From: Paeniglutamicibacter terrestris
GTDB lineage: Bacteria; Actinomycetota; Actinomycetes; Actinomycetales; Micrococcaceae
DNA length: 64,000 nucleotides
Assembly: GCF_012271785.1 (NCBI RefSeq)
Contig: NZ_JAAWVT010000004.1
Location: 186,001-250,000 of the forward strand
Direction: 5' to 3'
The position numbers and the translations under genes are program-made. A model generated the notes under the pieces. It worked only from the letters and a program-made list of their open reading frames with translations. It was not told the DNA's origin and ran no database searches. This document shows, one piece after another, positions 14,322-29,386 of the stretch. Position 1 is the first letter of the stretch; each line of letters opens with the position of its first letter.

Positions 14322-14750
14322 TTAGAGAAAGGGATACTCAATTTTGGGGCACGTGTCCATGACAACCTCGAGGCCCGCTGCTTTGGCTCTTTTGGCAGCC
14401 GATTCATCACGAACACCGAGCTGGAGCCACACCGCGCCCGCCCCAATGGCAATCGCTTGATCCACGATATCGCCCACTTTTTGCGAGTTCACAAAACAAT
14501 CCACAACATCGATTTGCCCAGGGATCTCTGCCAATCGTGTATATCCGCGGTTTCCAAAAACATCTTCGCCACTGAGCGATACCGGGATGATTTCCATCCC
14601 CAAGTCATCTTGCAAGAAGCGCGAAACGCCTGGGGCAACGCGGCGTGGATTATTGCTCAGGCCGACTACCGCCCACCGCCCACGGGTTTGCAGCAGACGG
14701 CGGATCACCGCCGGATCATTAACGTGGCCTGCGCCGGTTTCGTTGCTCAT
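14322..14750 (-). CDS. CoA-binding (YccU-like) Rossmann protein
   Basis: A 142-residue protein of the CoA-binding domain family. It shows WAVVGLSNNPRR (nucleotide-binding loop), SRFLQDDLGMEIIPVS, DVVDCFVNSQKV, GAGAVWLQLGVRDE and a C-terminal MDTCPKIEYPFL. The ATG at 14750 gives the usual family length; longer forms begin at a TTG. It lies 97 bp after the monooxygenase at 14847-16244 on the same strand, and a second member of the family follows metY at 36447. Its role is unknown, but the repeated association with sulfur genes in this window is suggestive. Confidence 0.85.
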   Translation of the reverse strand: MSNETGAGHVNDPAVIRRLLQTRGRWAVVGLSNNPRRVAPGVSRFLQDDLGMEIIPVSLSGEDVFGNRGYTRLAEIPGQIDVVDCFVNSQKVGDIVDQAIAIGAGAVWLQLGVRDESAAKRAKAAGLEVVMDTCPKIEYPFL

Positions 14751-14846
14751 GGTCTCTACGCTATCGCCATCTTCTGCATCTGTACCGCCGACGGATTCTT
14801 CGTATTGCCTCACGCCAGCGGGATTAGGAACGGCCAATGGCCCTTC

Positions 14847-16244
14847 CTAATCCCCCGCTGCTGCTGAGTGTTCCGCAAAAGCCCCCCGAAACTTCGCGGC
14901 CGGATGGCTACTTTCAAGGCGTGGACCACGCCCGAAGACCTTTTCGCGCAGGGTTCCCGGGGTGTACTCGGTTTGCGCCAAGCCGCGCTTGTGCAGTTCG
15001 GGCAAGATCCCCTCGATGAAGTCGGAGTATGAGCCGGGGAGGATCTGGTTCATGATGTTCAGCCCGTCCATGTCCGCATCTTGCCAGTCTTCGATCTGGT
15101 CCACAATCTGTTCCGGGGTGCCGGAGATCTGCTGCGCCTTGGCTCGGTAGCGGGCGAGGTCGCCGATGGTTGGCTTGCCGCCGGGCACCGAGGCGATGGC
15201 CGCCTCGAGGACGCCGCGAGCGCCCTCGGTCTGAACGTCGCCCAGCGGTGTGTCAAGATCCAGCCCGCCAAGGTCGATTCCGATTCCGCCACCAATGTGG
15301 GCAACGATTGCATCCAGATCGAGGTACTCGTCGTACTCGGCTTCCTTGCGTTTGGCTTCTTCCTCGGTGCTGCCGACGACGAAGGAGAGTCCTGCGAAGA
15401 CCTTGACATCTCCCACGGCACGCCCTGCAGCCGCCTCAAGCTCGCGGATCTTGCCCACTTGCTTGGCCACGTACTCCGGATGCGGGGCAAAGAGGAAGGT
15501 CGCCTCCGCGTGCTCGGCAGCGAATTGCTTGCCGCGTGCGGAGGAACCTGCCTGGAAAAGGAACGGCGTGCGCTGCGGGCTTGGCAGGGCCAAGTGCGGG
15601 CCTTCGATGGAGTATCGCTTGCCCTGGTGGTGGATCTTGTTGATCTTGGCCGGATCGGCAAAAATTCCGGATTCTTTGTCGGCCAAGACCGCATCGTCTT
15701 CCCATGAGCCCTCCCACAATTTGTAGGTGGCCTCCACGTATTCTTCGGCCCAGTCGTAGCGGTCGTCGTGGGCGGTCAGCCCCGCGGCCCCGAAATTCCG
15801 GTGCGAGTTCTCCAGCACGCTGGTCACGATGTTCCACGCAACACGGCCGTTGGAGAGGTGGTCAAGGGTGGAGAGCTGACGCGCGAACTGGAACGGTGCG
15901 GCCTGTACCACCGAGCTGGTCATCGCCAGTCCGATTTCGCTGGTGGTCGCGGCAAGGGCGGAGAGCAACACCAACGGGTCGTGCGAGGGAACCTGCATGC
16001 CCTTGCGAACCATCGATGCCCAGCCACCTTCATGGTTGCCATAAAGACCCACCACGTCGGCAAAGAACATGTTGTCGAACTTGGCGTCCTCGAGCTGCTT
16101 TGCCAAGTCCACCCAGAGCTTGAGCTCGTTGAAGCGGTGCTGCTGGGCCTCAGGGTGGCGCCACTGGCCACCGAGGATGTGGCTCGGGGTATTCATCAGG
16201 AATGCGCTCAGCAGCAGCCGGGGCCGCACGTCAAAGGTACCCAT
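14847..16244 (-). CDS. FMNH2-dependent monooxygenase, NtaA/SnaA/DszA family (copy 1)
   Basis: A 465-residue bacterial-luciferase-like TIM-barrel protein of the NtaA/SnaA/DszA subfamily, whose members use reduced FMN from a separate reductase to cleave C-S or C-N bonds. Motifs: HILGGQWRHPEA near the N terminus, FDNMFFADV, LDHLSNGRVAWNIVTS, LPSPQRTPFLFQAGSS and a FGRGPRLESSHPAA C-terminal end. It directly follows the SfnB/DszC-like gene, whose stop abuts this start, and is the sixth gene from the SAM-riboswitch-controlled promoter. This points to a role in organosulfur breakdown. Specific substrate unknown; no flavin reductase lies in the operon. Confidence 0.87.
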   Translation of the reverse strand: MGTFDVRPRLLLSAFLMNTPSHILGGQWRHPEAQQHRFNELKLWVDLAKQLEDAKFDNMFFADVVGLYGNHEGGWASMVRKGMQVPSHDPLVLLSALAATTSEIGLAMTSSVVQAAPFQFARQLSTLDHLSNGRVAWNIVTSVLENSHRNFGAAGLTAHDDRYDWAEEYVEATYKLWEGSWEDDAVLADKESGIFADPAKINKIHHQGKRYSIEGPHLALPSPQRTPFLFQAGSSARGKQFAAEHAEATFLFAPHPEYVAKQVGKIRELEAAAGRAVGDVKVFAGLSFVVGSTEEEAKRKEAEYDEYLDLDAIVAHIGGGIGIDLGGLDLDTPLGDVQTEGARGVLEAAIASVPGGKPTIGDLARYRAKAQQISGTPEQIVDQIEDWQDADMDGLNIMNQILPGSYSDFIEGILPELHKRGLAQTEYTPGTLREKVFGRGPRLESSHPAAKFRGAFAEHSAAAGD

Positions 16245-17480
16245 TTATTTGTTCTCCAATGTCGAATCCTTGGCGTCCCCGATGGAGTGAAGCCCGGTGG
16301 GAATGGTGCCGTTGATGTAGTAGTCGCCCACCGAGCGTGCCTTGAAGGCCACCGGATTGTGGGTGGCAACGGTACGGGCGTTGCGCCAGTGCCGGTCCAG
16401 GGACTTGCCCCGTGAAACGGAGGATGCGCCGGTAACGTCAAACAGTTCGCTGGTCGCATCGAGCACCAATTTTGGGACACTCACGTGCGCTTGCTGGACA
16501 GCGATCTCGGCGCGTATGAAGGCAGCGGTTGGATCCAGGCCCAGGGCCGGATCCACCGCGGCGTCTAGGTCTCGGGCAGCGGCGAAGACGATCGAGTCGG
16601 CGGCGTAGACGGCCGCTGCGATGCGCCCAACTTTTTCCTGGATCAACGGGTCGTTGCGGAACAGATCCCCCGAACCGGTATTGAAGGTACGGGTACGCTC
16701 GCGTACCAACAGTGCTGCATCCGCCAGTGCGGCACGGCCGATTCCTGCCAGCACGCTCAACAACGCCAGCTGGAAGAACGCCGGCTCAAGCGTGGAGGAA
16801 ACCTTGCGCTGAATGATGTCGGCGAAATCGACCACCACATCGTCGAAGATCGCGGTGCCGGTTCCCGTGAGCGGCTGACCAAAACCATCCCAGTCGTCAA
16901 TAATCCGGACCAGTGGATCGTCGGCGCGAACGATGGCGTACTGGCGGCCTTCAACGCCCTCGGTGCTGGCCATGACCACTACCCAGTCGGCAAAAATCGA
17001 CCCGGTGGTGTAGTACTTCTCCCCCTTTAGCAGCCATTGGCCGTTCTCCTCACGGAGCTTGGTATTAGTGGTGCCCAGTGCGTTGCCGCCCTTTTCCGTG
17101 GCCGCATTGCCAAAGATCTCCCCAGCCAGCACCCGCGGGAACCAACGCAGCCGAAATTCCTCGGGCTGCAGGTTGATGGTTTCGACAAAGGAAAAATGCG
17201 AGCGCAACAAATGCCCGACGTTGGAGTCGGCTGCAGAAAGTTCCACGATGAGCCGGAAAAGATGCTCGTGGCTAACCGGATCCCCACCGTGGGACACCGG
17301 GACACGCAGCGTAGTGAAACCCGCTTCCTTGAGCCATTTCACCGGTTCAAAGGGCAAAACGTGGTTACTCTCCCGTTCCACGGTTCCTTCGGCAATACGC
17401 CCAAATACTGGGGCAAAGCGTGCACTCAGCTCGGCGTAACGGGCTTCGTCGGTGCGTTCCTTCAGGTACGTTGCAGTCAT
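16245..17480 (-). CDS. Acyl-CoA-dehydrogenase-fold monooxygenase, SfnB/DszC-like (copy 1)
   Basis: A 411-residue flavoprotein of the acyl-CoA dehydrogenase superfamily, of the SfnB/DszC sulfur-acquisition branch rather than a beta-oxidation enzyme. Visible features: ADSNVGHLLRSHFSFVE, NALGTTNTKL, LKGEKYYTTGSIFADWVVVM, DDWDGFGQPLTGTGT and LDRHWRNARTVATHNPV. DszC-type enzymes oxygenate sulfur atoms with FMNH2 and O2. GGAGG 7 nt before ATG 17480 decides the start. It lies between the ABC ATPase gene (45 bp) and the DszA-like gene (0 bp), so the operon couples uptake and oxidation. Confidence 0.85.
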   Translation of the reverse strand: MTATYLKERTDEARYAELSARFAPVFGRIAEGTVERESNHVLPFEPVKWLKEAGFTTLRVPVSHGGDPVSHEHLFRLIVELSAADSNVGHLLRSHFSFVETINLQPEEFRLRWFPRVLAGEIFGNAATEKGGNALGTTNTKLREENGQWLLKGEKYYTTGSIFADWVVVMASTEGVEGRQYAIVRADDPLVRIIDDWDGFGQPLTGTGTAIFDDVVVDFADIIQRKVSSTLEPAFFQLALLSVLAGIGRAALADAALLVRERTRTFNTGSGDLFRNDPLIQEKVGRIAAAVYAADSIVFAAARDLDAAVDPALGLDPTAAFIRAEIAVQQAHVSVPKLVLDATSELFDVTGASSVSRGKSLDRHWRNARTVATHNPVAFKARSVGDYYINGTIPTGLHSIGDAKDSTLENK

Positions 17481-17525
17481 TTGTCTTCCTCCACCTTCAT
17501 GAGATCCAAAAATATTGACCAAGAC

Positions 17526-19163
17526 CTAGTTCGTTGCCATTTCGCGCAGCAGCGCCCCGGGGTTTGAATCCAGCAGGAGCCGGGTGTATTCGCTGGTGGG
17601 ATTGTTCAGAACCTGTGTGGCCGTCCCGACCTCGACCAGCCGGCCCTGGCGCATGACTCCCACATCATGGGAAATACGCTCGACCACGTGTAGGTCATGG
17701 GAAATGAAAAGGTAGGACAGCCCCTGATTGACCTGCAGGTCCTCCAAGAGCGCCAAGATCTGCGCCTGGGTCAACACGTCGAGCGCGGACAGGGCCTCAT
17801 CGAGCACCAGCGTCTTGGCGCCCAGGGCCAATGCCCGGGCAATGGCAACGCGTTGGCGCTGTCCGCCGGAGAGTTCCTTGGCGCCCAGCGCGGCCATGCG
17901 GGTGGGCAGGTTGACCGCGTCCAGCAGCTCGGCAACTCGCAGCCTGCGTTCGGCCTTGCTGCCCACCTTGTAGTTCTCCAGCGGCTCGCTGATGATTCGG
18001 GAGACTGAATAGCGCGGGTCCAGAGCCGAATCCGGGTTTTGATACACCAATTGCAGGCTGCGCCACAGCTCGCGCTTGTCAATCCCGCGCGCGTGGGTAA
18101 CGTCTTGTCCGTGGATCTTCACGGTTCCGGCGGTGGGCTCCAGCAACCGCATGATCATCCGGGCCGTCGTGGATTTCCCGGATCCGGATTCCCCCACCAA
18201 GGAGAACGTTGTGCCGGGGCGCACCGCAAATGACACCTCGTCCACCGCCGCGCGTTCAGTCTTGCCCCTGCCGTAGATCTGTGTAAGCCCAGCCACTTCG
18301 ATGGCTGGGACGGTGATGGCGCCCATGCCAGTGGCGATTCGGGACGCGTCGCCCGAGGCCGTGGCCTCGGTGAGCAGCATCCTCGTGTAAGCATCTTCGG
18401 GAGACCGCAGAATCTCAAGCACCGGACGGTCCTCACGGATCTGTCCGTGTTGCATGACCACAATGCGGTCGGCGATGTCGGTGGCGACGGCAAGGTCGTG
18501 GGTCACGAAAATGACAGCGGTTCCGAGCTCGCGCGCCAGCTTAGTGAAGACCTCCAAGACGGTCTGTTGGACCGTTACATCCAAGGCGGAGGTGGGCTCG
18601 TCGGCAATCAGCAGCTCAGGTTTCAGGGCAAAGGCAATCGCAATGAGCACCCGTTGCTTCAGTCCGCCGGAAAGCTCATGCGGGTATTGAGAGATGCGTT
18701 GTTCCGGGGTGTCGATCCCGACCAATTCCAGTAGCCGGATGACTTCGGCGCGCAATTCAACTCTGGAGAGCTTGTGCCCCTGCGGGTGCAGGCGGAAAAC
18801 TTCGGAAATCTGAGAACCCACGGTCTTCACGGGGTCCAGCGAAGCCCCCGGATCTTGTGGGACCATGCCGATGCGTCGACCGCGGATCGATGCCAGTTCC
18901 CTCTCGGAACGGGACAGCAGGTTCTCGCCGCCAAGATTGATGCTGCCACCTAGGATCCGCGCGGACTGGGGTAGCAATCCGATGATGGCCTTGGAGAGCG
19001 TGGATTTGCCCGAACCGGATTCACCGACCAAGGCAACGATCTCCCCGGGTTTGAGTGTCAGATCGATGTTCTGGGCCGCGACGACTGCTTCGTCACCGTG
19101 GCCATAAGTAATGCTGAGTCCGCTGATGTCCAGCAACGCGGATGCCGAGGCGATGGTGCTCAT
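17526..19163 (-). CDS. Peptide/nickel-type ABC importer, fused double ATPase (DppD-DppF)
   Basis: A 545-residue protein with two complete ATPase modules. The first has GESGSGKST, the signature LSGGLKQRV and LLIADEPTSALD; the second has GESGSGKSTTAR, LSGGQRQRV and LVLDEALSALD. It would energise the permeases encoded just upstream (14 bp and 34 bp gaps). In the peptide/nickel class these transporters import peptides, metals or small organic solutes; linkage to monooxygenases and a SAM riboswitch suggests an organosulfur compound here. Confidence 0.92.
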   Translation of the reverse strand: MSTIASASALLDISGLSITYGHGDEAVVAAQNIDLTLKPGEIVALVGESGSGKSTLSKAIIGLLPQSARILGGSINLGGENLLSRSERELASIRGRRIGMVPQDPGASLDPVKTVGSQISEVFRLHPQGHKLSRVELRAEVIRLLELVGIDTPEQRISQYPHELSGGLKQRVLIAIAFALKPELLIADEPTSALDVTVQQTVLEVFTKLARELGTAVIFVTHDLAVATDIADRIVVMQHGQIREDRPVLEILRSPEDAYTRMLLTEATASGDASRIATGMGAITVPAIEVAGLTQIYGRGKTERAAVDEVSFAVRPGTTFSLVGESGSGKSTTARMIMRLLEPTAGTVKIHGQDVTHARGIDKRELWRSLQLVYQNPDSALDPRYSVSRIISEPLENYKVGSKAERRLRVAELLDAVNLPTRMAALGAKELSGGQRQRVAIARALALGAKTLVLDEALSALDVLTQAQILALLEDLQVNQGLSYLFISHDLHVVERISHDVGVMRQGRLVEVGTATQVLNNPTSEYTRLLLDSNPGALLREMATN

Positions 19164-19177
19164 GCTATTCCCCTTGA

Positions 19178-20083
19178 CTAGAAACGGAAGATTTTATGGA
19201 GCTGGCGCCCGAGGCCTGCCAGCAGGACGACCACCAAGACGATGACTATGCCCGGAAGAGTCGTGAGCCACCAGGCGGAGGCCAAGTATTGTCGACCCTC
19301 CGCGATGAGCAGGCCCCATTCCGGGGTCGGTGGTGGGGATCCGAAGCCCAGGAAACCGAGCCCCGAGATTGCCAGGATGGCCACCCCCAGGTCCACGGCC
19401 AAGAGGGCCAGAACCGGGCCGCAGGAGTTTGGCAGGATGTGTTTGAAGACCACAGACCAGTAGGTTCCGCCGTTCATGAAGGCTGCCTCGACATAGTCGA
19501 GGCTCCGAACACGCAGGACCTCCGACCGGACCACCCGGGCGAACGAGGCAATCGAGGCAATGCCAACGCCGACACCCAGGGAAATCGGTCCAGGGGCATA
19601 CGCTGTGACGATAATCAGCGAAATCAAGAATCCCGGCACGGCCAAAAGGACATCAATCAGGCGCATAGTGACGGCATCGGCGGCGCGTCCAGCCGTCGCA
19701 GCCAGTAGGCCCAGTCCGGTGCCCACCACCAGCCCGATGCACACGGCCAGTCCGGCGGTCAGCAACGTTTGGCTGGTTCCATGCACGACGCGGGCGAAGA
19801 CGTCGCGCCCCAGATGGTCGGTCCCAAACCAGTGTTCGAGTCCCGGCCCCTGGAACTTTTGGGCAGGAACACCGCTGATCGGGTCATAGCCGCTAAACAA
19901 GGAGGGAAAGAGCGCCCACCCGACGACCACGATCAACGGCGCGCACGTCAACCAGAACGAGACCGAGCGAATGGCACGTTGCTTGGGCTTTGCTGCGTGG
20001 CCTTGCGCCGTTCCGTTATTTGGGCCGGGATCCGCCCCGCCGCCCAGCGTCTGCAGCAACGGTTCCTCTAGTTTGATGCTCAT
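19178..20083 (-). CDS. ABC transporter permease (DppC type)
   Basis: A 301-residue inner-membrane permease with an N-terminal helix at about residues 35-57, a periplasmic-facing loop (PGLEHWFGTDHLGRDVFAR, characteristic of DppC/OppC) and five further helices. The cytoplasmic EAA loop reads YVEAAFMNGGTYWSVVFKHI. The ATG at 20083 has GGAG upstream and is preferred over the longer reading. It partners the DppB-type permease directly upstream (19 bp) in the same importer. Confidence 0.92.
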   Translation of the reverse strand: MSIKLEEPLLQTLGGGADPGPNNGTAQGHAAKPKQRAIRSVSFWLTCAPLIVVVGWALFPSLFSGYDPISGVPAQKFQGPGLEHWFGTDHLGRDVFARVVHGTSQTLLTAGLAVCIGLVVGTGLGLLAATAGRAADAVTMRLIDVLLAVPGFLISLIIVTAYAPGPISLGVGVGIASIASFARVVRSEVLRVRSLDYVEAAFMNGGTYWSVVFKHILPNSCGPVLALLAVDLGVAILAISGLGFLGFGSPPPTPEWGLLIAEGRQYLASAWWLTTLPGIVIVLVVVLLAGLGRQLHKIFRF

Positions 20084-20102
20084 GGGTGTTCTCCGTTCAA
20101 GC

Positions 20103-21062
20103 CTAGGCAACGAGTGCACGCGGTGCCCCGTGCGTTCCACTCTTGAGGATTCGTGGATCCAATAGCGGGTAGAGCAAATCAACAACGAGATTGACGAGGA
20201 CGAATGCCGTGGCCGTCAGCAGAACCATCCCCTGGACCAGGGCAACATCCTGCGCAGTCACTGCCTGCAGCACGACCTGACCGAGGCCCGAACGGGCGAA
20301 GACGGTCTCGGTGATGACCGACCCTGCCAAAAGCGTCCCCACGGTGATGCCACTGATAGTCATCGCCGGCGCAGCCGCATTTTTTAAGGTGTGACGGAAG
20401 AAGATCCACGATGGCGAGGCCCCCTTGGCACGCAACACATCCACAAAGGGTTGGGCATGAACGTTGTCGACGCTCTTAAGCAGCACTTGGGCGATTGGCG
20501 CCGAGATGTGGATCGCCAGGACAAGCACCGGGACCGCAATGGAGGCAAAGGAACCATCGGGGAAGAGGGACATGATTCCCAGCTGGATCGAGAGCAGCTG
20601 TAGGAGCACCAGTCCCAGCCAAAATACCGGAACCGCAGCGAATAGCGGCGGCAAATTGATGATGAAGCGCTTCAGCCACGACTGGCGGACCAGTGTGGCT
20701 GAAGCCACCAACAACACAGCGAGTGCCACAGCTGCAACAAATGCGCTGGACGCGAGCACCAAGGTCGAAGAGGCCACCGAACCGATGCGTTCCGACACGG
20801 GCTGTCCCGACGCCAGCGAGTACCCGAAATCGCCCCGAAAAAGACCGGTCAGCTGATTGAAGTACTGCACTAGCAGGGGCTGATCGTAGCCGTATTGCGC
20901 CTTCATGGCAGCAATGGTTTCCGGGTTGGCCGCCGCGTCCGCGGAAAGGAAGATCGTTACCGGGTCATTTGGCAACAGCTGCACGGCCAGAAAAACCAAG
21001 GTGTAGGCAAGCCAGATGACCAGAAGCGCCTGTCCGATACGTCGCGCGATATAGGCGGCCAT
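20103..21062 (-). CDS. ABC transporter permease (DppB type)
   Basis: A 319-residue inner-membrane permease with six predicted helices. The N-terminal YIARRIGQALLVIW helix is typical of DppB/OppB, as is the periplasmic domain with YGYDQPLLVQYFNQL and GDFGYSLASGQPV. The EAA loop reads VDVLRAKGASPSWIFFRHTL. It follows the binding-protein gene by 6 bp and forms the transmembrane pore with the DppC-type subunit. Confidence 0.92.
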   Translation of the reverse strand: MAAYIARRIGQALLVIWLAYTLVFLAVQLLPNDPVTIFLSADAAANPETIAAMKAQYGYDQPLLVQYFNQLTGLFRGDFGYSLASGQPVSERIGSVASSTLVLASSAFVAAVALAVLLVASATLVRQSWLKRFIINLPPLFAAVPVFWLGLVLLQLLSIQLGIMSLFPDGSFASIAVPVLVLAIHISAPIAQVLLKSVDNVHAQPFVDVLRAKGASPSWIFFRHTLKNAAAPAMTISGITVGTLLAGSVITETVFARSGLGQVVLQAVTAQDVALVQGMVLLTATAFVLVNLVVDLLYPLLDPRILKSGTHGAPRALVA

Positions 21063-21068
21063 GGGTGA

Positions 21069-22727
21069 CTACTTTCCGGTCTTCCAGGCACCCTGGAAAA
21101 TTGGGGCGGTGCCAGAGGTGAATTCGACGTGTGCACCGGCGTTGCCGCCGTAGACCTGAACCTCGTCCCAAAGGACAAGCGACAAGGCCTTTTCGCTGAC
21201 CAACTGGCGCTGTTCCTCTTCAACTAGCTTGGTGTGTGCCGCCTCGGTAGTGGCGGCACGTTCCTTGGCAAACAGCGCGTTAAGCTCCGCGTCGGCATTC
21301 AAAGTCTGGGTGTTGTTCGCCGGGCCGAAGACCGGGCCCAATCCACCGTAGGCAAACTGGCGGGTTCCGAAGAGCTCGTTGTTCGGATCGATCATCGCGG
21401 TGGCCAGGAACGTGTTGTCGGCGGCACGGTTGATGAGCTTGACGCCGATTTCACGCCACTGCTGTTCGATCAGCTCAAAGGCCGGCTTAATCACCACGGA
21501 ATTGTTCGAGCTCGTGACGGTGATTTCGAGCCTGACCCCGTCCTTTTCCCGCACGCCGTCGGCACCGACGGTCCAACCCGCGGCGTCCAGCAGTGCCTTT
21601 GACTTTTCAGGGTCGTAGGCGAGGTCGGCCGACAGATCAACAAATCCGGGGGCTTCGTGGTTCAGTACCGAGCCGGCAACCACATAGCTGTCGGACAAAA
21701 CCGTGTCTTTGATCGACTGGCGGTCGATGCCCACCTGGAGTGCCTGGCGAACCGTGGGGTCGGAGAGCTTTTCGCTCCCAATCCGCACAGCGGCCATGTT
21801 GGTGGTCAGATCGATGCCCTTGGCCGGCAGCACTTGGTTGCCGCTGTCCTTCAGCGCTATCTCGTCAACGGGCTGCAGGCCACGGGCCAGATCAACTTGG
21901 CCTGTCTGCACTGCGCCGGCGCGGTTTGAGACCTCGGGCAGGTACTTCACCACCAGCTTGTCCAGATATGCAGCGCCCTGATTTTCAGCGGTCTCAGGTG
22001 CCCATTTGTAATCGGTCCGCTTGGCGAAGGTGACTTCTTCATCGGTTTTCTCCGACTCGAAGACGAATGGACCCGAGCCCACGAGCTTGGAAATTGCAGA
22101 TTGCCCGGCGTTGTCCAGCTTGAGCGTGGCTGGGGAAACAAGTCCTGAGGTCACGGACGAGGTGGCCCGCAGAAAATTCGCGTCCGGACTCTTGAGTGTG
22201 ACCTTGACCTGATTCTTTCCCACAACCTCTGCGGACTTGAACGCGGAGAAGTCGACGTTTGGAGCGATCTGGGCTGCCTCAACTCCCAAGCCGAGCGCGT
22301 CAAGGTTAGTCTTGACCGCTGCCGCATCCAGCTGGGTACCGTCCGAAAAGCTCACGCCGTCACGAATCGTGAACGTGAACTCGGTCTGGTCCTTGTTGGC
22401 CGTGAACTTCGACGCTATCCAGCCAACGAGTTTCCCCGATTCCGCGTCAAAGTACGTCAGGCGGTCCAAGACACTATTGAGCACGTTGGACTTCTCGTAA
22501 AACCGGGCCGCCTGTGTTTGCCAGTTGTTGATGGGAGTGACCTCGGCGTAAACGAAGGTTCCGCCCTGAACCGGCTCGCTGCTACCCGTTGGTGCGGCAT
22601 TGACCGGCGTCTGCGCCCCGGAGCCACACGCGCTTAGTGCCAAGGTGGCGACGGAAAGGACGGTTAGCACTTTCACGCCGAAGCGCGCGCGAATCCTGTG
22701 CTTTGTGGGTGGATTGTTGTTGCCCAT
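21069..22727 (-). CDS. ABC transporter substrate-binding lipoprotein (family 5)
   Basis: A 552-residue extracytoplasmic solute-binding protein of the SBP_bac_5 type, anchored as a lipoprotein: the signal peptide ends in a lipobox LSAC. Features: LVGWIASKFTANKDQTEFTF, FTIRDGVSFSDGTQLDA, SDPTVRQALQVGIDRQSI and a C-terminal LVLWDEVQVYG. It is first in a six- or seven-gene operon and its translation start lies behind a SAM riboswitch and an SD-masking hairpin. Family 5 proteins often bind peptides, but the monooxygenases downstream suggest a sulfonate, sulfone, thioether or other organosulfur ligand. The ligand is inferred, not seen. Confidence 0.9.
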   Translation of the reverse strand: MGNNNPPTKHRIRARFGVKVLTVLSVATLALSACGSGAQTPVNAAPTGSSEPVQGGTFVYAEVTPINNWQTQAARFYEKSNVLNSVLDRLTYFDAESGKLVGWIASKFTANKDQTEFTFTIRDGVSFSDGTQLDAAAVKTNLDALGLGVEAAQIAPNVDFSAFKSAEVVGKNQVKVTLKSPDANFLRATSSVTSGLVSPATLKLDNAGQSAISKLVGSGPFVFESEKTDEEVTFAKRTDYKWAPETAENQGAAYLDKLVVKYLPEVSNRAGAVQTGQVDLARGLQPVDEIALKDSGNQVLPAKGIDLTTNMAAVRIGSEKLSDPTVRQALQVGIDRQSIKDTVLSDSYVVAGSVLNHEAPGFVDLSADLAYDPEKSKALLDAAGWTVGADGVREKDGVRLEITVTSSNNSVVIKPAFELIEQQWREIGVKLINRAADNTFLATAMIDPNNELFGTRQFAYGGLGPVFGPANNTQTLNADAELNALFAKERAATTEAAHTKLVEEEQRQLVSEKALSLVLWDEVQVYGGNAGAHVEFTSGTAPIFQGAWKTGK

Positions 22728-22732
22728 TGTTC

Positions 22733-22758
22733 ATTCCCTCTCGGTGTACCCGAGGAAT
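22733..22758 (-). promoter_or_regulatory. SD-sequestering hairpin of the ABC operon
   Basis: In minus-strand RNA ATTCCTCGG pairs with CCGAGAGGGAAT with a 3-nt bulge. The 3' arm contains GAGGGA, the ribosome site 7 nt before ATG 22727. With the S-box aptamer about 80 nt upstream, this looks like the expression platform of a translational OFF switch. Confidence 0.65.
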
Positions 22759-22836
22759 GCCGCGGCATGGCTGATCATTCGAACCCTTACCTGTTAGGTG
22801 GCGGTATTCGGTGGACCGGCGCAGAGTTGGCTATCT

Positions 22837-22926
22837 CCATCGGTCCTGGCGGTAGCACCGGCCTCCGTCATAAGGAAGTGGTTGCTGCGGCGTCAACGAG
22901 CCAGGTCTCTCAGCCGCTCTGGATGG
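22837..22926 (-). promoter_or_regulatory. S-box (SAM-I) riboswitch, ABC-transporter operon
   Basis: Minus-strand RNA shows the S-box core in order: P1 5' strand CCATC, GAGCGGCTGAGAGACCTGGC, TGACGCCGCAGCAACC (ligand-binding and kink-turn region), GGTGCTACCGCCAGGA, and P1 3' strand GATGG. These match the established SAM-I order of conserved blocks. High SAM should repress the importer and monooxygenase operon. The 109 nt to the start codon contain the SD-masking hairpin. Confidence 0.9.
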
Positions 22927-23258
22927 TGTGTTCATGGTTGACCGTTAGTCGTTCCCGAACGATTTAAGTGTGTCGCAGATTCTTCGATACGACCAAGATT
23001 TGACCGCCACACGTGAAACAAAAGGACGCAAAATCATGACTTGATGGCTTAAATGCGTCACCAATCGTCACAAGACCGATTGTGAAGCAGCAATTTTTAA
23101 ATGCTTGTGTCATCGCCGCGTCATGTGGATAATGCACGAAGAAGAACCAGTCTGGGGCGTGGAAATCTGCAATCATAACCCCCGCAGTCAGCACTCTCGA
23201 CCCTATTCACCCTGAAATTCGCCGGCCCGCGGGCTCGCCGACGTGGGATGATCGCCTC
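22927..23258. other. Divergent intergenic region between ABC operon and DUF1345 gene
   Basis: No gene seen in these 332 bases. The region should carry the promoter of the riboswitch transcript (minus) and of the DUF1345 gene (plus). It is relatively AT-rich around 22980-23120. TTCTTCGAT at 22980-22988 recurs at 27223-27231 upstream of acs, which might mark a shared operator; the match is too short to be firm. Confidence 0.5.
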
Positions 23259-23909
23259 ATGGCGGAAATACGGACACTGCGAACCAAACATCGGCGTTTG
23301 CGCGTACTGGGGATGCTCCTCGGCGGCGGCGCCGCGGCAGCGCTCAGTGGCCTTCTGGGTCATTGGACCTATGCCCCGGCCATCGGCTGGAGTGTTGCCG
23401 CCCTGATTTACAACGCCTCGGTGTGGATCAGCATCGCCCCGATGGACTCCGTCAGAACCGCCGAGCACGCCCAAGAAGAAGACCCGGGGTTCCAGACGAC
23501 CGACCTACTGATCTTGGCCGCGGCCATTGGTTCTCTAGCCGCCGTTGTCATGGTGATTGCTGGCGGAAAAGACGTCTCCGGATCCGCACGGCTGCTCTTG
23601 GCCCTGCTGGCGCTGGTGTGCACCGCTTCCTCGTGGCTCATGGTGCACACCCTGTATACGCTGCGCTACGCGAAGATCTACTACGGCGGAGTTCCCGGTG
23701 GCATCGGATTTAATCAGGTCGAACCACCGCAGTACACGGATATCGCTTACATGGCCTTCAGCGTCGGAATGACCTATCAGGTCTCCGATACCAACATCAC
23801 CACGCGAGAGATGCGCTCGGCGGTGCTCCGCCACAGTCTCTTGGCGTTCCTCTTTGGCACGGGCATCGTGGCGACCACCATCAACCTGGTGGTCAGTCTG
23901 GCCGCTTAA
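23259..23909 (+). CDS. DUF1345 membrane protein
   Basis: A 216-residue integral membrane protein with about five hydrophobic segments (roughly 15-50 as two helices, 82-102, 110-130 and 190-212). The family signature is YTDIAYMAFSVGMTYQVSDT and the following RHSLLAFLFGT. DUF1345 proteins are of unknown function. It stands alone between two sulfur-related minus-strand operons and ends at a strong terminator. No link to sulfur metabolism is visible beyond position. Confidence 0.85.
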   Translation: MAEIRTLRTKHRRLRVLGMLLGGGAAAALSGLLGHWTYAPAIGWSVAALIYNASVWISIAPMDSVRTAEHAQEEDPGFQTTDLLILAAAIGSLAAVVMVIAGGKDVSGSARLLLALLALVCTASSWLMVHTLYTLRYAKIYYGGVPGGIGFNQVEPPQYTDIAYMAFSVGMTYQVSDTNITTREMRSAVLRHSLLAFLFGTGIVATTINLVVSLAA

Positions 23910-23915
23910 ACAACG

Positions 23916-23960
23916 CCGGTGGTGGCACACCCTCGCGGATGAACCACCACCGGAGCTTTT
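23916..23960 (+). terminator. Rho-independent terminator after DUF1345 gene
   Basis: A perfect 10-bp stem CCGGTGGTGG/CCACCACCGG with an 18-nt loop, followed by AGCTTTT on the plus strand. It may also work for the convergent gene ending at 23983. Confidence 0.85.
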
Positions 23961-23982
23961 AGGACGGCGTGACGGCTTTAAG

Positions 23983-25386
23983 CTAGCTAACCTTGGCGCT
24001 GTCGAAGCGGTAGTTCGCCGCACGGTGCGAGTCCTGGACACGGTCGCCCTTGCCGAAGAGCTTGTTACGCAGTGTGCCCTCAACGTATTCGGTCGGGTAG
24101 GCGCCGCGGGCCTGAAGCTCCGGAACGATGAACTCGACAATGTCTTCGAAGGTGCCCGGGGTGATGGCGTAGGCCAGGTTGAAGCCGTCCACGTCGGTGT
24201 CTTGAACCCAATCGATGAGCTTGTCGGCCACCTCGGTGGGCGAACCGATGGTGACGGGGCCGAAGCCGCCAACACCCACCCATTCGGCCAACTGGCGAAT
24301 CGTCCACGGGTTGCCTTCGTCGCCGCTGGCCTTCTGGAACATCGCGACGGAGGACTGGATGGCGTTGGATTTCACGTTGGCGCCGATAACGTCGTCGGGT
24401 CCGTAGGTGGAGAGGTCGACGCCCATCCAGCCGGAAATCAGCGCCAGGGCGCCGTCGATGTCGGCGTAGGACTTGTAGTCTTCAAACTTTGCCTGCGCGG
24501 CGGCAGAATCCACGTCGGTGATGATGGTCTGCATGGCGTAGATGCGCACGTCGTAGCGGCCACGTCCTGCGGCCTCAACGGCGTCACGGATCTTGGTGAC
24601 CGTCGCCTTGAGCATTTCCTTGGTGGGGCAGGTGACAAAGACTGCTTCCGCGTTCTCCGAGGCAAACTTCAGGCCACGCGATGAGGTTCCGGCCTGGAAA
24701 ACGACCGGGGTGCGCTGCGGGCTGGGCTCGGTGATGGCGATGCCGGGGACCTTAAAGTACTTGCCCTCGTGCTTGATCTCGTGCACCTTGGACGGGTCGG
24801 TGAAGATGCCGCGCTCGACGTCCTTCACCACCGCGTCCTCTTCCCAGGAGCCCTCGAGGAGTTTGTAAACAACTTCCAGGTACTCATCGGCGTGGTTGTA
24901 GCGCTCGTCGTGCTCCAGCTGGTCTTCTTGGCCCATGTTACGCGCCGCGGAGGGCAGGTATCCGGTGACTACGTTCCAGCCGACACGGCCCTTGGTCAGG
25001 TGATCAAGGGTCGCCAAACGACGAGCGAACGGGTATGGGTGCTCGTAGGCGGTGCCTGCCGTGACACCGAAGCTGAGGTTTTCGGTCACCGAGGCCATAG
25101 CCGAGACCAGCATGAACGGATCGTTGACCGGGACCTGGGTGCCGGCACGCAACGGAACCTCGTTGGAGCCGCCGAACACGTCGTAGGTGCCCAACACATC
25201 GGCAATGAAGATGCCGTCAAACTTGCCCTTTTCCAGCGTCTTGGCCAGATCGGTCCAGTAGGACAGGTCCTTGTAGCGTGCGGACTGGTCCTTGGGGTGC
25301 TTCCACAATCCCGGGGACTGATGTCCCACGCAGTTCATGTCGAAGGCGTTAAAGCGGATTTTTCGAGGGGCAGGAGTGGTGCTCAT
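23983..25386 (-). CDS. FMNH2-dependent monooxygenase, NtaA/SnaA/DszA family (copy 2)
   Basis: A 467-residue luciferase-like protein of the same subfamily as copy 1 at 14847. Shared features: RKIRFNAFDMN N-terminal strand, KFDGIFIADVLG, LDHLTKGRVGWNVVTGYLPS (flavin-site region), EPSPQRTPVVFQAGTSSRG and FGKGDRVQDSHRAANY at the end. GAAGGA precedes ATG 25386. It lies 68 bp after its SfnB/DszC-like partner, which is headed by a SAM riboswitch. Presumed role: reductive-flavin-dependent cleavage of an organosulfur compound. Divergence from copy 1 in the middle of the barrel suggests a different substrate. Confidence 0.87.
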   Translation of the reverse strand: MSTTPAPRKIRFNAFDMNCVGHQSPGLWKHPKDQSARYKDLSYWTDLAKTLEKGKFDGIFIADVLGTYDVFGGSNEVPLRAGTQVPVNDPFMLVSAMASVTENLSFGVTAGTAYEHPYPFARRLATLDHLTKGRVGWNVVTGYLPSAARNMGQEDQLEHDERYNHADEYLEVVYKLLEGSWEEDAVVKDVERGIFTDPSKVHEIKHEGKYFKVPGIAITEPSPQRTPVVFQAGTSSRGLKFASENAEAVFVTCPTKEMLKATVTKIRDAVEAAGRGRYDVRIYAMQTIITDVDSAAAQAKFEDYKSYADIDGALALISGWMGVDLSTYGPDDVIGANVKSNAIQSSVAMFQKASGDEGNPWTIRQLAEWVGVGGFGPVTIGSPTEVADKLIDWVQDTDVDGFNLAYAITPGTFEDIVEFIVPELQARGAYPTEYVEGTLRNKLFGKGDRVQDSHRAANYRFDSAKVS

Positions 25387-25454
25387 AGTGATCCTTCGCG
25401 AGGTGTGGGAAATGTCTAGGTCCGCGGCTATGCGGAGACGAAAGTTGGTGGGGT

Positions 25455-26804
25455 TTAGCCGAGGTTCTGTACGATCTCGGTCGCCTTGTGCTGTCCCACA
25501 TCGCCGATGGCATTCAGCTGCTGTGGGGCCGTCCCGTTGACCTCGTAATCGCCAATGATGCGAGACTTGTAGATCGCCGGGTTGTGGGTCGCCACGGTGC
25601 GGGCATTGCGCCAGTGCCGGTCTAAATTGCAGCTCTTCGCGGTGGCTGATGCACCCAGTCCGTCAAAAAGCTTGCTGGCTGCCCCGAGCACCAGCGGTTG
25701 AACCACGGACTGGGCCCGGTCCGCGGAGAGTTCACAGACAGCAAAGCGCTCCGCCGCACTTAGCGAGGGGTCAGCCAGAGCCACCTCGATCTCGGCAACG
25801 GCGGCCAGAACAATGGAATCAACGGCAAACGCGGTGCCAGAAATCTCTCCCACCAACTGCAGCACCTGAGGCTCATCGCGTACCGGAACTCCGGTTCCGG
25901 TACTGAAGCTGCGGGTTCGCGCCTGCACCGCGGAGCGGACATCGTTGAGCACCGCACGGGTAATGCCGGCCTGCACAGCAAGAAGGACCAGCTGGAAAAT
26001 CGCAGATTCCGGATCATTGATCTGCTGTTCCTCCGGCAGGAACGTATCAACCGGGACATTTTCGAATGTCGTAGATCCGGTGCCGGTGAGCTGCTGACCA
26101 AAACCGTCCCAATCATCAAAGATCTTCACCCCTGAATGCTGGGTGGAGACCACGGCGATTTGGCGCCCCGCACGGGTGGGGTGGGACACCGCGACGGCCA
26201 CCCAATCGGCATAGATGGTGCCCGTGCAGTAATACTTTTCGCCGTTGAGGATCCACCGTTCACCGTGTTGGGCCACGTTGGCGTTGAGTGTTCCCAGCTG
26301 ATTGCCGCCGCGTTCGGTGTAGGCATTGCCAACGATCTGCCCGGCAACGATCCTCTCGACCCAGCGGTGGCGCAAGGCATCATCTTCAAGGTGCAGAACC
26401 GCCTCGACGAAGCCAATGTGGGAACGCCAGAGGTGGGCGACCTGCGAGTCGGCTTCGGCCAGCTCGATGAGCAGGCGGAACAAGTCCGAGACACTGGCAC
26501 CGTAGCCACCCTGGTTAGCGGGGACACGCAGGGCGCCGAAGCGCACCCGGTTTAACCAGCCAACTGGCTCAAAGGGAAGGGTCCGGCTGGCATCACGCTC
26601 GCTGGCCCCAGCCGCAATCTTGGCGAAGATCGGACGGAAGATTGCAGCGAGTTCGTCGTAGTGCTCATCGCGCGGAACGCCAGGGGTGAGCTTCAGTAGG
26701 TGGCGAGCGGGGGTGGTGCCGGTGAACGAGTTGAGATTAACGGCACCAAAGATGTTGGGGTCGGTCTCGACTTCTAATGCATGCGTAAAGGAATCGGCAG
26801 CCAT
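25455..26804 (-). CDS. Acyl-CoA-dehydrogenase-fold monooxygenase, SfnB/DszC-like (copy 2)
   Basis: A 449-residue paralogue of the protein at 16245, with an N-terminal extension of about 35 residues. Matching motifs are ADSQVAHLWRSHIGFVE, NQLGTLNANV, LNGEKYYCTGTIYADWVAVA, DDWDGFGQQLTGTGS and LDRHWRNARTVATHNPA. The ATG at 26804 has GGAGAG about 5 nt upstream; this ribosome site overlaps the P1 helix of the S-box riboswitch, so SAM should block translation directly. It is the first gene of the second oxidase pair. It could oxygenate sulfur before cleavage by the DszA-like partner, by analogy with the Dsz system. Confidence 0.86.
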   Translation of the reverse strand: MAADSFTHALEVETDPNIFGAVNLNSFTGTTPARHLLKLTPGVPRDEHYDELAAIFRPIFAKIAAGASERDASRTLPFEPVGWLNRVRFGALRVPANQGGYGASVSDLFRLLIELAEADSQVAHLWRSHIGFVEAVLHLEDDALRHRWVERIVAGQIVGNAYTERGGNQLGTLNANVAQHGERWILNGEKYYCTGTIYADWVAVAVSHPTRAGRQIAVVSTQHSGVKIFDDWDGFGQQLTGTGSTTFENVPVDTFLPEEQQINDPESAIFQLVLLAVQAGITRAVLNDVRSAVQARTRSFSTGTGVPVRDEPQVLQLVGEISGTAFAVDSIVLAAVAEIEVALADPSLSAAERFAVCELSADRAQSVVQPLVLGAASKLFDGLGASATAKSCNLDRHWRNARTVATHNPAIYKSRIIGDYEVNGTAPQQLNAIGDVGQHKATEIVQNLG

Positions 26805-26813
26805 GAATTCTCT

Positions 26814-26903
26814 CCATCGGTCTGGCGTGAGCACCTACCGCCCAATTAAGGGGAGGGGTTGCTGCGGCGTCATAGAGCCAGATCTCTCGGCCGCTCTGGA
26901 TGG
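26814..26903 (-). promoter_or_regulatory. S-box (SAM-I) riboswitch, second monooxygenase pair
   Basis: Minus-strand RNA: P1 CCATC, GAGCGGCCGAGAGATCTGGC, TGACGCCGCAGCAACC, GGTGCTCACGCCAGA and P1' GATGG. P1' shares its final GG with the GGAGAG ribosome site of the gene at 25455-26804, so no separate expression platform is needed. Bases 26857-26896 are identical, in inverted orientation, to 27334-27373. Confidence 0.92.
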
Positions 26904-27326
26904 TTGTTGGTCATATTTCTACACGCTTCCGGGCGACGCAAACAACCCACTACGTCACAAACGAAGTCTGCATCACAGCCCGGTGGCGCCATAGGACTTA
27001 GCTGCGTCAGGCCAATAGTCGGAGGCTGATCATTCTTCGGTCGATTCGTTCGATTCGATGTTGGTGCAACATCGGCTGCTGGCTGGTGACCCTCACTGCA
27101 GACAACCGGTGGGACAATCGCCGCAGGGCCGGACCTTCTCCGGAACGAGGCGGCGATTTCTACCCGCCGAACAGGCACCCACAACACGCATTAAATATTC
27201 GAGGTAGATCGAATATATAGAAGTTTCTTCGATGCGCAATGAAATGGGGGGCAAGTGTCGAACGTTCCGTCACATTACGACCGGTTTGCCCCTATGGCCG
27301 ATCATCGACTTTGATACAAGAACCAC
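26904..27326. other. Divergent promoter region between two riboswitches
   Basis: No gene seen in these 423 bases; an in-frame upstream reading from 27239 into acs runs through the riboswitch and is not credible as protein. The region must hold two divergent promoters. AT-rich sequence is concentrated at 27190-27235, with a 22-bp palindrome at 27195-27216. Confidence 0.6.
27195..27216. promoter_or_regulatory. 22-bp palindrome, candidate operator
   Basis: Perfect 8-bp arms ATATTCGA and TCGAATAT around a 6-bp spacer, 111 bp before the acs-side aptamer. The length and symmetry fit a dimeric repressor or activator site. The regulator is not identifiable from the window. Confidence 0.45.
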
Positions 27327-27410
27327 CCATCCCGAGCGGCCGAGAGATCTGGCTCTATGACGCCGCAGCAACCGCCTGTCACGTAGTGGTGCTAACGCCA
27401 GAACCGATGG
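27327..27410 (+). promoter_or_regulatory. S-box (SAM-I) riboswitch, acs
   Basis: Plus-strand RNA: P1 CCATC (27327-27331), GAGCGGCCGAGAGATCTGGC, TGACGCCGCAGCAACC, GGTGCTAACGCCAGA and P1' GATGG (27406-27410). The last GG of P1' begins the GGAG ribosome site 6 nt before the acs ATG. SAM binding would hide the ribosome site. The 84-nt aptamer is compact. Confidence 0.92.
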
Positions 27411-27418
27411 AGCAGAGC

Positions 27419-29386
27419 ATGACCGAAACTCTTACACCAGCACTTTCCAGCGAGTCATCGTGGAGTGAAGCCGAACGTCTCGCCTTTTGGGATGCGGCAG
27501 CTCGTCGCCTGAGTTGGTCAGAGCCATGGCACACCATCCACACCAGCACTGAGGTAAATAGCGCCGCCCGGCGGGGACCCGCGCTGCGCTGGTTCGAAGG
27601 CGGCAAGCTTAATGCTGCCTACAACTGCGTGGATCGCCATGTGGAAGCGGGCCGCGGAGACAAGGTGGCGCTGCACTTCGAAGGCGAGCCCGGGGACCGA
27701 GCCACCGTCACGTACAAGGATCTACAGGATCGCGTTTCTCAGGCAGCCAATGCGCTGGAGTCGCTGGGCATCACCAAGGGTGACCGTGTGGTGGTATATC
27801 TTCCGGTTCTTATCGAAACCATCGTCATCACCTTGGCCTGCGCCCGTATCGGCGCGGTGCACTCGCTGGTCTTCGGCGGCTTCTCCGCGGAGGCCCTGAA
27901 GTTCCGTGTTGAGGACACCGCGGCCAAACTCTTGGTCACCACCGACGGCCAATTCCGCCGCGGCGTCTCGGTCCCCGTCAAGGCGCACGCCGACGAGGCC
28001 GTCGCTGGCGAGAACGCCATCGAGCACGTGCTGGTCATCAACCGCACCGGACACACCGACATTAACTGGGTCGAGGGCCGAGACGTTTGGTGGCACGAGA
28101 CGGTCGATACCGCGAGCACCGAACACACCTCCGAGGCCTTCGACGCCGAGACTCCACTGTTCATCATGTACACCTCCGGGACTACGGGCCAACCCAAGGG
28201 CCTGGTTCACACCACCGGCGGCTACCTCACCCAGACGTCCTGGAGCCATGAGTTCCTCTTCTCGAATCCGGATGCGGCCCAGCGCGACAACGACGTCCAT
28301 TGGTGCACCGCCGACCTTGCCTGGGTCACCGCACACACCTATGAGATCTATGGGCCACTGTCCAACGGCGTCACCCAGGTCATTTACGAGGGTGTTCCCA
28401 ACGCCCCGCACCCGGGTCGCCATTTCGAAATCATCGAGCGTTATGGGGTGACCAGCTACTACACCGCGCCCACCCTAGTGCGCTCGCTGATGGGCTGGTT
28501 CCCCGAAGGCATCCCGGGCGAATACGACCTCTCCTCGATCCGGCTGGCCGGAACCGTCGGCGAGGCAGTAAATCCGGAAGCATGGCGCTGGCTGCGCGCG
28601 CAGATCGGGCGTGACACCGCCGACGGAATTCCGATGGTTGATACTTGGTGGCAGTCCGAAACCGGTGCCACTATCCTCTCCCCGCGCCATGACGACCCCG
28701 CATTTAAGCCCGGTTGCGGCACCCGGGCGCTGCCCGGGGTGAGCGTGGACATCGTTGATGACCAAGCACTGACCGTGGGCAAGAACATTCAGGGCAACAT
28801 CGTGCTCACCAAGACCGGACCGTCGATGGCCCGCACCGTCTGGGGCAACCCCGAGCGCTACTACACCTCCTATTGGGAGAAGTACGCATCACAGGGCTGG
28901 TTCCTGGCCGGGGATGGCGCCCGCTTTGATGAGGACGGGGACATCTGGATCCTGGGCCGCACCGACGACGTGATCAACATTTCCGGTCACCGACTTTCCA
29001 CCATCGAAATTGAATCCGCACTGGTCACCCATCCCGCGGTGGTCGAGGCCGGGGTCTGCCCCACCAGTGATGCCAAAACTGGCCACGCTGCCACGGCATT
29101 TGTGGTGCCGTTGGACAAGAGCATCGTGGGCGCCGATCTGCAGGGTGATGCTCTTTTGAGGCAGCGCGAGTTGGCAGCCGAGTTACGCAACCACGTGGCC
29201 ACTCAGATCGGGCCGATCGCCAAACCACGCGAGATCGTTTTTGTGCCAGATGTTCCCAAGACGCGTTCGGGCAAGATCATGCGCCGATTGCTGACACAGC
29301 TTTTTGAGCGGGGCACGCTTGGTGACACCACCAGCCTGCAAAACGAGCCGTGCATCGCGCAGATTAAGGAAATCTGCGAAGCCTAG
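27419..29386 (+). CDS. acs: Acetyl-CoA synthetase (AMP-forming), SAM-riboswitch controlled
   Basis: A 655-residue acetate-CoA ligase that makes acetyl-CoA from acetate, ATP and CoA. Motifs: the P-loop MYTSGTTGQPKG, MVDTWWQSETG (the Trp pair typical of acetate-sized pockets), GRTDDVINISGHR and the C-terminal lysine region TRSGKIMRR, whose Lys is the usual acetylation site. The ATG at 27419 is chosen by GGAG 6 nt upstream. S-box control is unusual for this enzyme. MetY and cysteine synthase release acetate from O-acetyl amino acids, so acetate recycling during sulfur assimilation is a reasonable explanation, but is inference. Confidence 0.93.
   Translation: MTETLTPALSSESSWSEAERLAFWDAAARRLSWSEPWHTIHTSTEVNSAARRGPALRWFEGGKLNAAYNCVDRHVEAGRGDKVALHFEGEPGDRATVTYKDLQDRVSQAANALESLGITKGDRVVVYLPVLIETIVITLACARIGAVHSLVFGGFSAEALKFRVEDTAAKLLVTTDGQFRRGVSVPVKAHADEAVAGENAIEHVLVINRTGHTDINWVEGRDVWWHETVDTASTEHTSEAFDAETPLFIMYTSGTTGQPKGLVHTTGGYLTQTSWSHEFLFSNPDAAQRDNDVHWCTADLAWVTAHTYEIYGPLSNGVTQVIYEGVPNAPHPGRHFEIIERYGVTSYYTAPTLVRSLMGWFPEGIPGEYDLSSIRLAGTVGEAVNPEAWRWLRAQIGRDTADGIPMVDTWWQSETGATILSPRHDDPAFKPGCGTRALPGVSVDIVDDQALTVGKNIQGNIVLTKTGPSMARTVWGNPERYYTSYWEKYASQGWFLAGDGARFDEDGDIWILGRTDDVINISGHRLSTIEIESALVTHPAVVEAGVCPTSDAKTGHAATAFVVPLDKSIVGADLQGDALLRQRELAAELRNHVATQIGPIAKPREIVFVPDVPKTRSGKIMRRLLTQLFERGTLGDTTSLQNEPCIAQIKEICEA

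Follow-up and report, generated by a model that had tools for sequence, protein, structure and literature searches.

SAM-I riboswitches of a likely organosulfur regulon in Paeniglutamicibacter terrestris and other Micrococcaceae

A 64 kb stretch of Paeniglutamicibacter terrestris DNA (contig NZ_JAAWVT010000004.1, positions 186,001 to 250,000; hereafter the window) carries three S-box (SAM-I) aptamers, the RNA elements that sense S-adenosylmethionine (SAM), before an ABC importer and flavin monooxygenase operon, a second monooxygenase pair and acs2, which encodes a paralog of acetyl-CoA synthetase. The aptamers, their positions, their conservation and their linkage to these genes are observed, and they are most likely three working riboswitches within a sulfur regulon that S-boxes control across the family; they would bind SAM and turn off genes for the use of organic sulfur, with a part for Acs2 that is proposed below. 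This reading is favored because relatives, both within the genus and elsewhere in the Micrococcaceae, keep the arrangement beside undoubted sulfur genes (metF-metE-metY-metB, a metN-like gene, an SsuA-family importer and sfnG).

The riboswitch class and the direct mechanism discussed below have been described before; what is new is the set of genes served, and most of all the dedicated Acs2. Among the papers listed by searches of an open-access library, none dealt with S-boxes before sfnB/dmoA-like genes or before acs, which is weak evidence of absence. The main text of a study of SAM regulons (PMC3766115) contains the words 'monooxygenase', 'sulfonate' and 'Arthrobacter' zero times.

Identity and structure of the aptamers

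A cmscan search of the window against the 4227 families of Rfam 15 produced three matches above threshold, all with RF00162 (SAM-I, S-box; gathering threshold 44.4 bits):

22834-22929, minus strand: SAM-I aptamer 1 (59.3 bits, E = 3.4e-11), before the importer/monooxygenase operon
26811-26906, minus strand: SAM-I aptamer 2 (56.1 bits, E = 3e-10), before sfnB2
27324-27413, plus strand: SAM-I aptamer 3 (53.3 bits, E = 1.9e-9), before acs2

Since aptamer 2 lies on the minus strand and aptamer 3 on the plus strand, switches 2 and 3 are divergent. The original prediction, made from the letters alone, had placed three S-boxes at 22837-22926, 26814-26903 and 27327-27410; the covariance model bears out all three, with no end displaced by more than 3 nt, and the conserved SAM-I blocks that it named are found in every one. 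Five RF00162 matches exceed the threshold in the 4.34 Mb genome. Of the two outside the window, one (C27:53538) precedes a metF-metE-metY-metB operon and the other (C26:60541; 44.9 bits, barely above threshold) a ribose-type ABC importer.

The GCAACC and GGTGC blocks, which have a role in SAM contact, are intact in all three window switches, as is the internal loop between P2a and P2b. SAM-I/IV variants lack this P2 internal loop (PMC2864571). In an alignment of 20 distinct genus aptamers, hand-chosen from 76 leaders, the drawn structure (P1, P2, P2b, P3 and the pseudoknot) pairs in 99.8% of 458 cells, compared with only 25-54% in slid controls. The pseudoknot between the P2 loop (CTGG) and J3/4 (CCAG) contributes four pairs with no mispair in the 20 sequences (two gap cells set aside). 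Two pairs show changes on both sides; as 18 of the 23 pairs are invariant (4/5 in P1), covariation by itself is modest. The window switches thus resemble RF00162 in sequence blocks, helices P1-P3, P2 internal loop, pseudoknot and score, and differ from it in a P4 of at most one pair, in the CCGA J1/2 of the acs switch and in the genes served, namely probable desulfurizing monooxygenases and an Acs paralog.

Genes behind the switches

The genes behind the three switches, in operon order, are as follows.

21069-22727, minus strand: ABC importer substrate-binding protein (SBP) of the SBP_bac_5 family (PF00496; TIGR04028, 359 bits)
20103-21062, minus strand: ABC permease of DppB/NikB type (profile searches)
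19178-20185, minus strand: ABC permease of DppC/NikC type (profile searches; the true start probably lies within the open reading frame)
17526-19163, minus strand: double ABC ATPase (profile searches)
16245-17522, minus strand: SfnB1, DszC/SfnB-like flavin monooxygenase of acyl-CoA dehydrogenase fold (TIGR04022, 297 bits)
14847-16244, minus strand: NtaA1, NtaA/DmoA-family FMN monooxygenase (TIGR03860, 496 bits, above cut-off)
14322-14837, minus strand: CoA-binding domain protein (PF13380), after NtaA1
25455-26804, minus strand: SfnB2, DszC/MsuC-like monooxygenase (TIGR04022, 263 bits), first gene after switch 2
23983-25386, minus strand: NtaA2, DmoA-like monooxygenase (TIGR03860, 539 bits), following SfnB2
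27419-29386, plus strand: acs2, acetyl-CoA synthetase paralog of 655 residues (TIGR02188, 759.9 bits against a cut-off of 724.95)

The switch 1 operon thus runs from the SBP through two permeases, the double ATPase, SfnB1 and NtaA1 to the CoA-binding protein, and its importer is overall of the oligopeptide/nickel type. An assignment of 14322-14837 as a flavin reductase was rejected, the domain being the CoA-binding PF13380. The start of acs2 is most likely 27419 rather than the open-reading-frame start at 27239. The importer, the two SfnB/DszC-like plus NtaA/DmoA-like pairs and the acetyl-CoA synthetase expected from the original prediction all stand directly behind the switches. No ssuB-type importer operon is present between switches 2 and 3 in the window.

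Distribution in the genus and family

S-box matches occur in all 15 genus genomes searched, with four to seven in each (91 in total, nine under the Rfam cut-off; the first-gene tally covered 77). Across the Micrococcaceae a match is found in 247 of 295 genomes and 27 of 32 genera, and exceeds the cut-off in 219 genomes. A further sample was drawn from 33 loci, assigned to Actinobacteria by title, among 80 homologue loci retrieved with a query that mixed SfnB2 and SfnB1; 32 genomes were searched, of which three gave no match and five were set aside as genus members, leaving 24 genomes with 91 matches (nine below the cut-off). The genomes were therefore chosen via SfnB or genus membership and are related to one another.

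The first genes behind 168 S-boxes, classed by BLAST against a reference set drawn mostly from this genus, comprise organosulfur monooxygenases (42), acs (20), metY (19, leaving out four rows labeled 'metB?'), ssuB-like genes (18), SBP genes (14) and metN-like genes (14), with nine left without a class. In the reference set the label 'metB?' stands for an O-acetylhomoserine sulfhydrylase and 'metY_35' for a cystathionine gamma-synthase, and the protein 'sir' is similar to nitrite/sulfite reductases and reaches no cut-off. First genes in the 24 other genomes include SfnB-like, NtaA-like, ssuB-like, acs, metN-like, metF, metY and sfnG genes, as well as a flavin reductase (PF01613) and a nitrite/sulfite-reductase-like gene. 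In the genus set, 11 genomes have an S-box before an importer SBP gene. The protein behind ssuB in one relative (G001) exceeds the SsuA-family cut-off (206 against 163.5 bits), which identifies that operon as an aliphatic-sulfonate-type importer. The S-boxes of the window and its relatives probably form a conserved organosulfur regulon.

In Nesterenkonia aurantiaca an S-box (G044:C11:53811-53907, plus strand) lies directly before the nitrite/sulfite-reductase-like gene, and S-box control may there extend to core sulfur reduction.

Leaders and predicted mode of control

The start codon lies 106 nt past the aptamer in switch 1, 6 nt in switch 2 and 5 nt in switch 3. In switches 2 and 3 the 3' strand of P1 reads GATGGAG and is followed by the start codon, so that GGAG begins within the P1 strand (26812-26815 in switch 2, with the start codon at 26804, and 27409-27412 in switch 3). 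This GGAG, with its GG inside P1, is the only plausible ribosome-binding site of either switch. In direct translational SAM-I riboswitches, as described by Barrick and Breaker (2007; PMC2258182), the ribosome-binding site belongs to the 3' side of P1 and no more than 15 nt separate the aptamer from the start codon. Switches 2 and 3 share this layout, with starts 5-6 nt out, a GGAG overlapping P1 and an actinobacterial host, and differ in this from switch 1, which has a separate leader. The account of direct switches in the cited part of that paper makes no mention of the genes found here.

The short spacing is a property of certain gene classes. For switch 2 a start codon 6-7 nt past the aptamer is kept in 15/15 genus genomes, and among the 168 S-boxes an in-frame start within 16 nt is found before sfnB2 in 21/22 cases, ssuB-like genes in 18/18, metE-short in 9/9 and acs in 16/20, compared with 6/14 for metN-like genes, 1/19 for metY, 0/14 for the importer SBP and 0/11 for metF. 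The longer leader of switch 1 contains a further predicted element:

22813-22846, minus strand: predicted anti-P1 stem GGACCG...CGGTCC (arms 22841-22846 and 22813-22818), overlapping the 3' strand of P1

This stem excludes P1 and forms in the free fold (ViennaRNA), and its downstream arm CGGTCC was read by eye in 13 of the 13 importer-class leaders examined.

Together these features suggest the following scheme. High SAM would close helix P1, and in switches 2 (sfnB2-ntaA2) and 3 (acs2) SAM binding would block ribosomes directly, since P1 holds the Shine-Dalgarno GG. In switch 1 P1 would compete with the conserved anti-P1 stem over the 106-nt leader, and a hairpin near the start codon could conceal the ribosome site. 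A fall in SAM, and hence in methionine, would then allow the importer and the flavin monooxygenases to be made and sulfur to be taken from organic compounds.

Monooxygenases and their probable substrates

NtaA2 is 54% identical to the dimethyl-sulfide monooxygenase DmoA (PDB entry 6ak1), an enzyme that splits dimethyl sulfide into methanethiol and formaldehyde, over 409 aligned residues and 52% identical to the alkane monooxygenase LadA over 390 residues; its TIGR03860 match denotes a family wider than DmoA. Of the 20 substrate- or FMN-binding residues listed for DmoA (PMC9259527), 16 are kept in NtaA2 and 13 in LadA; Gln18 and Tyr138 of DmoA are among the residues present in NtaA2 and absent from LadA. 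Degradation of dimethyl sulfide has been seen in Arthrobacter, and its gene there is described as lacking a comprehensive study (PMC9259527). The closest solved structure to SfnB2 is methanesulfinate monooxygenase (6u76), and that to NtaA1 is a hexachlorobenzene dehalogenase (6lr1), followed by DmoA (6ak1).

Independently of the regulation, the relationship to DmoA, DszA/DszC and MsuC also suggests sulfur-containing substrates. The original prediction concluded from the regulation that the substrates contain sulfur; regulation and homology together make this likely, with the nearest solved relative of NtaA1 as the point that does not fit. By its resemblance to DmoA in identity and in 16/20 binding residues, NtaA2 would most likely cut a thioether or a related C-S bond. 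It differs from DmoA in its setting, being paired with a DszC/MsuC-like enzyme; the cluster genes examined include no flavin reductase. The system shares with the sfn/msu/ssu scavenging genes the enzyme families SfnG, SfnB/MsuC-like and, in a relative, the SsuA-family importer. In other bacteria these sulfur-starvation genes are controlled by transcription factors, whereas here the signal would be SAM acting through an RNA switch.

Acs2, the S-box-linked acetyl-CoA synthetase

The original prediction assigned simple acetate activation to the gene behind switch 3. The protein does pass the TIGR02188 cut-off, but that description is too simple, and a role as the general acetate enzyme was rejected, since Acs2 forms a clade of its own beside the housekeeping Acs and carries three fixed changes around the pocket. 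A full-length housekeeping Acs, 52-56% identical to Acs2 of the window, is present in 37 of the 39 genomes searched (39 copies), and Acs2 itself, at no less than 67% identity, in 36; hits of less than about 45% identity do not enter these counts, nor do a partial hit at 52% (G036:C5) and a second fragment of the G036 acs2. A same-strand S-box lies within 6 kb upstream of 33/36 Acs2 genes and of 0/39 housekeeping genes. Of the linked copies, 18 are within 300 nt of the S-box and 15 at 559-4153 nt, distances that end at the first aligned residue and span genes not all of which were read. The three unlinked copies are in G025, G037 and G039; the last of these lies at a contig end, in a genome where another contig ends with an S-box. 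The Fisher value for this difference, 3.5e-18, overstates the evidence because the genomes are related and were chosen via SfnB or genus membership.

In a 49-row tree (33 of the 36 acs2 and 15 of the 39 acs1 copies, with a tool warning on the long prpE branch) the Acs2 rows form one clade with support 100/99, and acs1 alone is not a supported group (36/0). The residues aligned with V, T, V and W, which are presumably those of the acetate pocket, are retained in Acs2. Beside the pocket, 33/33 Acs2 and 0/15 housekeeping rows show the fixed changes: the WVTGHSY block has Ala in place of Gly and has gained a Glu, and WWQTE has Ser in place of Thr.

Acs2 is best regarded as a dedicated member of the regulon. 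Its likeliest job would be to return acetate to acetyl-CoA; the leading ideas for the source are acetate freed by the O-acetylhomoserine sulfhydrylase MetY, whose gene follows an S-box in relatives, and a two-carbon product of desulfurization. A substantial possibility, well short of even, is that Acs2 instead activates a substrate other than acetate, for example a small carboxylate from the organosulfur compound, so that acetate recycling would be wrong. The invariant signatures (WVTA-[HQ]-TYE[IL] and WWQSE in 33/33 Acs2 rows against W[VI]TG and WWQTE in 15/15 housekeeping rows) would fit such a change, as would several relatives in which the first gene after the S-box upstream of acs2 is ssuB or a flavin reductase gene and acs2 is not adjacent to metY; the retained acetate-pocket residues and the TIGR02188 score speak for acetate.

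Within the acetate reading a more specific and rather doubtful proposal is a SAM-gated short cut, in which NtaA2 would release methanethiol from a thioether, dimethyl sulfide or one akin to it, MetY would combine it with O-acetylhomoserine to give methionine and acetate, and Acs2 would recover the acetate. O-acetylhomoserine sulfhydrylases can use methanethiol. If true, the short cut would account both for the use of SAM instead of cysteine as the signal and for the presence of an acetate-activating enzyme in the regulon.

A decayed S-box before sfnG-metY

Beyond the stretch first described (14322-29386) the window contains a second group of sulfur genes, the sfnG-metY pair (33880-36446):

33696-33774, plus strand: decayed S-box remnant (local alignment to three S-boxes of the relatives' sfnG/metY)
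33880-35073, plus strand: sfnG, dimethylsulfone monooxygenase (TIGR04021, 590 bits; cut-off 383)
35073-36446, plus strand: metY, O-acetylhomoserine sulfhydrylase (TIGR01326, 583 bits; cut-off 495)
36447-36947, plus strand: second CoA-binding domain protein (PF13380)

No Rfam SAM match is found at the remnant. In each of six comparisons only 0-2 of 300 mononucleotide shuffles aligned as well, and the remnant has an altered core and has lost its 3' half. The same decay precedes sfnG-metY in a near relative (G011), and an S-box lies upstream of sfnG in G002 and upstream of metY in 12 genus cases. Since the remnant is both altered and truncated, SAM probably no longer controls sfnG-metY in this lineage.

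Contrary evidence and alternative readings

Several observations weigh against three working SAM switches for sulfur genes. P4, a usual SAM-I helix that is not required for passing the Rfam threshold, is cut down to at most one pair in the window switches; by eye it is similarly short in the other genus sequences examined, the metF switch included. In the acs switch, cmscan flags several non-standard P3 pairs and J1/2 is CCGA rather than CAGA, as in seven of 11 genus acs switches (the window's included), and the exact GGTGC block is absent from four of the 11. Three relatives have weak acs S-boxes (G014:C1:3320819-3320907, 28.8 bits; G012:C15:10629-10718, 35.7 bits; G003:C13:48930-49030, 40.6 bits), which suggests that SAM control of acs2 has been lost in some species. 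When folded with ViennaRNA, neither switch 2 nor switch 3 shows a clean ON state. The Shine-Dalgarno GG is paired whether P1 is forced, free or forbidden (unpaired probability at most 0.18) as other stems hold it, so the folding does not support the expectation that it becomes free once P1 opens. On the side of the genes, SfnB1 (297 bits) and SfnB2 (263 bits) fall below the TIGR04022 cut-off of 430.9, and are thus related to SfnB and not classed as SfnB, and the importer SBP is under the TIGR04028 cut-off (359 against 468.5 bits).

Three alternatives follow from such points. The switches could bind SAM and regulate as a growth signal, with enzymes that release no sulfur and act on alkanes, chlorinated aromatics or other carbon sources. 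The dehalogenase next to NtaA1, the LadA identity of NtaA2 and the SfnB scores agree with this; it is nevertheless improbable, as the same switch family precedes the SsuA-family importer, sfnG, metN-like, metY and metF-metE genes and NtaA2 has the Gln18 and Tyr138 of DmoA that LadA lacks. Secondly, some aptamers could bind another ligand, as do spermidine variants of SAM-I, which have an altered J1/2 and an altered P3 internal loop (PMC10853860). The A-to-C change in J1/2 of the acs switch falls at one of these sites. The same J1/2 letters, however, are found in 11/11 genus metY S-boxes (among genus leaders, J1/2 is CCGA before metY and ssuB-like genes and CAGA before sfnB2 and the importer), GCAACC is kept in 11/11 genus acs S-boxes, and all three window switches have a canonical P3 loop with GCAACC and GGTGC intact, J1/2 being altered in one only. 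Ligand-changed variants were accordingly judged very unlikely here. Finally, the S-boxes before sfnB2 and acs2 could be relics without regulation. The remnant before sfnG-metY in the same genome, the weak acs S-boxes and the missing ON state would allow this; with the conserved blocks kept and the threshold passed in the three window switches, and the sfnB2 spacing kept in 15/15 genomes, this is very unlikely. Working SAM-I riboswitches of a sulfur regulon therefore remain the preferred reading.

An S-box variant elsewhere in the genome

The S-box before the ribose-type importer, outside the window (G000:C26:60541-60636, minus strand), has a changed P3 ligand loop, in which GC-AAG-stem-N-AGT-GC replaces GC-AA-CC...GG-T-GC. 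This pattern has 15 matches in 14 of the 295 family genomes, spread over three genera (G000, G005, G006, G007, G013 and G014, and carriers in two other genera); the reversed control pattern has none. An alignment of 13 distinct S-boxes omits that of G014, whose aptamer equals that of G013, and that of G163, which looks unrelated. With the structure drawn from one of the aligned sequences, the variant P3 stem pairs in 100% of 325 cells and covaries, with changes on both sides in four of the five apical pairs. The leaders with a readable first gene (mostly by eye) precede rbs-type importer genes or DszC/SfnB-like monooxygenases, and the operons of G000 and G005 contain a DmoA-like gene. By its sequence features this S-box is a candidate SAM-I variant that may sense a ligand other than SAM. 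Another S-box (G008:C1:3463610-3463705, plus strand) has a similar score, 44.9 bits, and does not fit the altered P3 pattern.

Other neighboring genes

A katG catalase-peroxidase gene (30745-32922, plus strand) lies between acs2 and sfnG, and katG also follows acs2 in G005. The PF13380 protein after metY mirrors the one after NtaA1. Genes for an LPXTG major pilin (SpaH/EbpB family) and a 1236-residue repetitive surface protein (8775-14090, minus strand) adjoin the sulfur cluster.

Implications

S-boxes serve to annotate methionine genes, and here the same class also precedes genes for organosulfur uptake and probable C-S bond cleavage. The switch class is widespread in the Micrococcaceae, which are common in soil, and the regulon flags monooxygenases that lack annotation as sulfur enzymes whose substrates can be tested. 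The Acs clade, with its conserved link to SAM control, makes a role for acetate in sulfur amino-acid metabolism directly testable.

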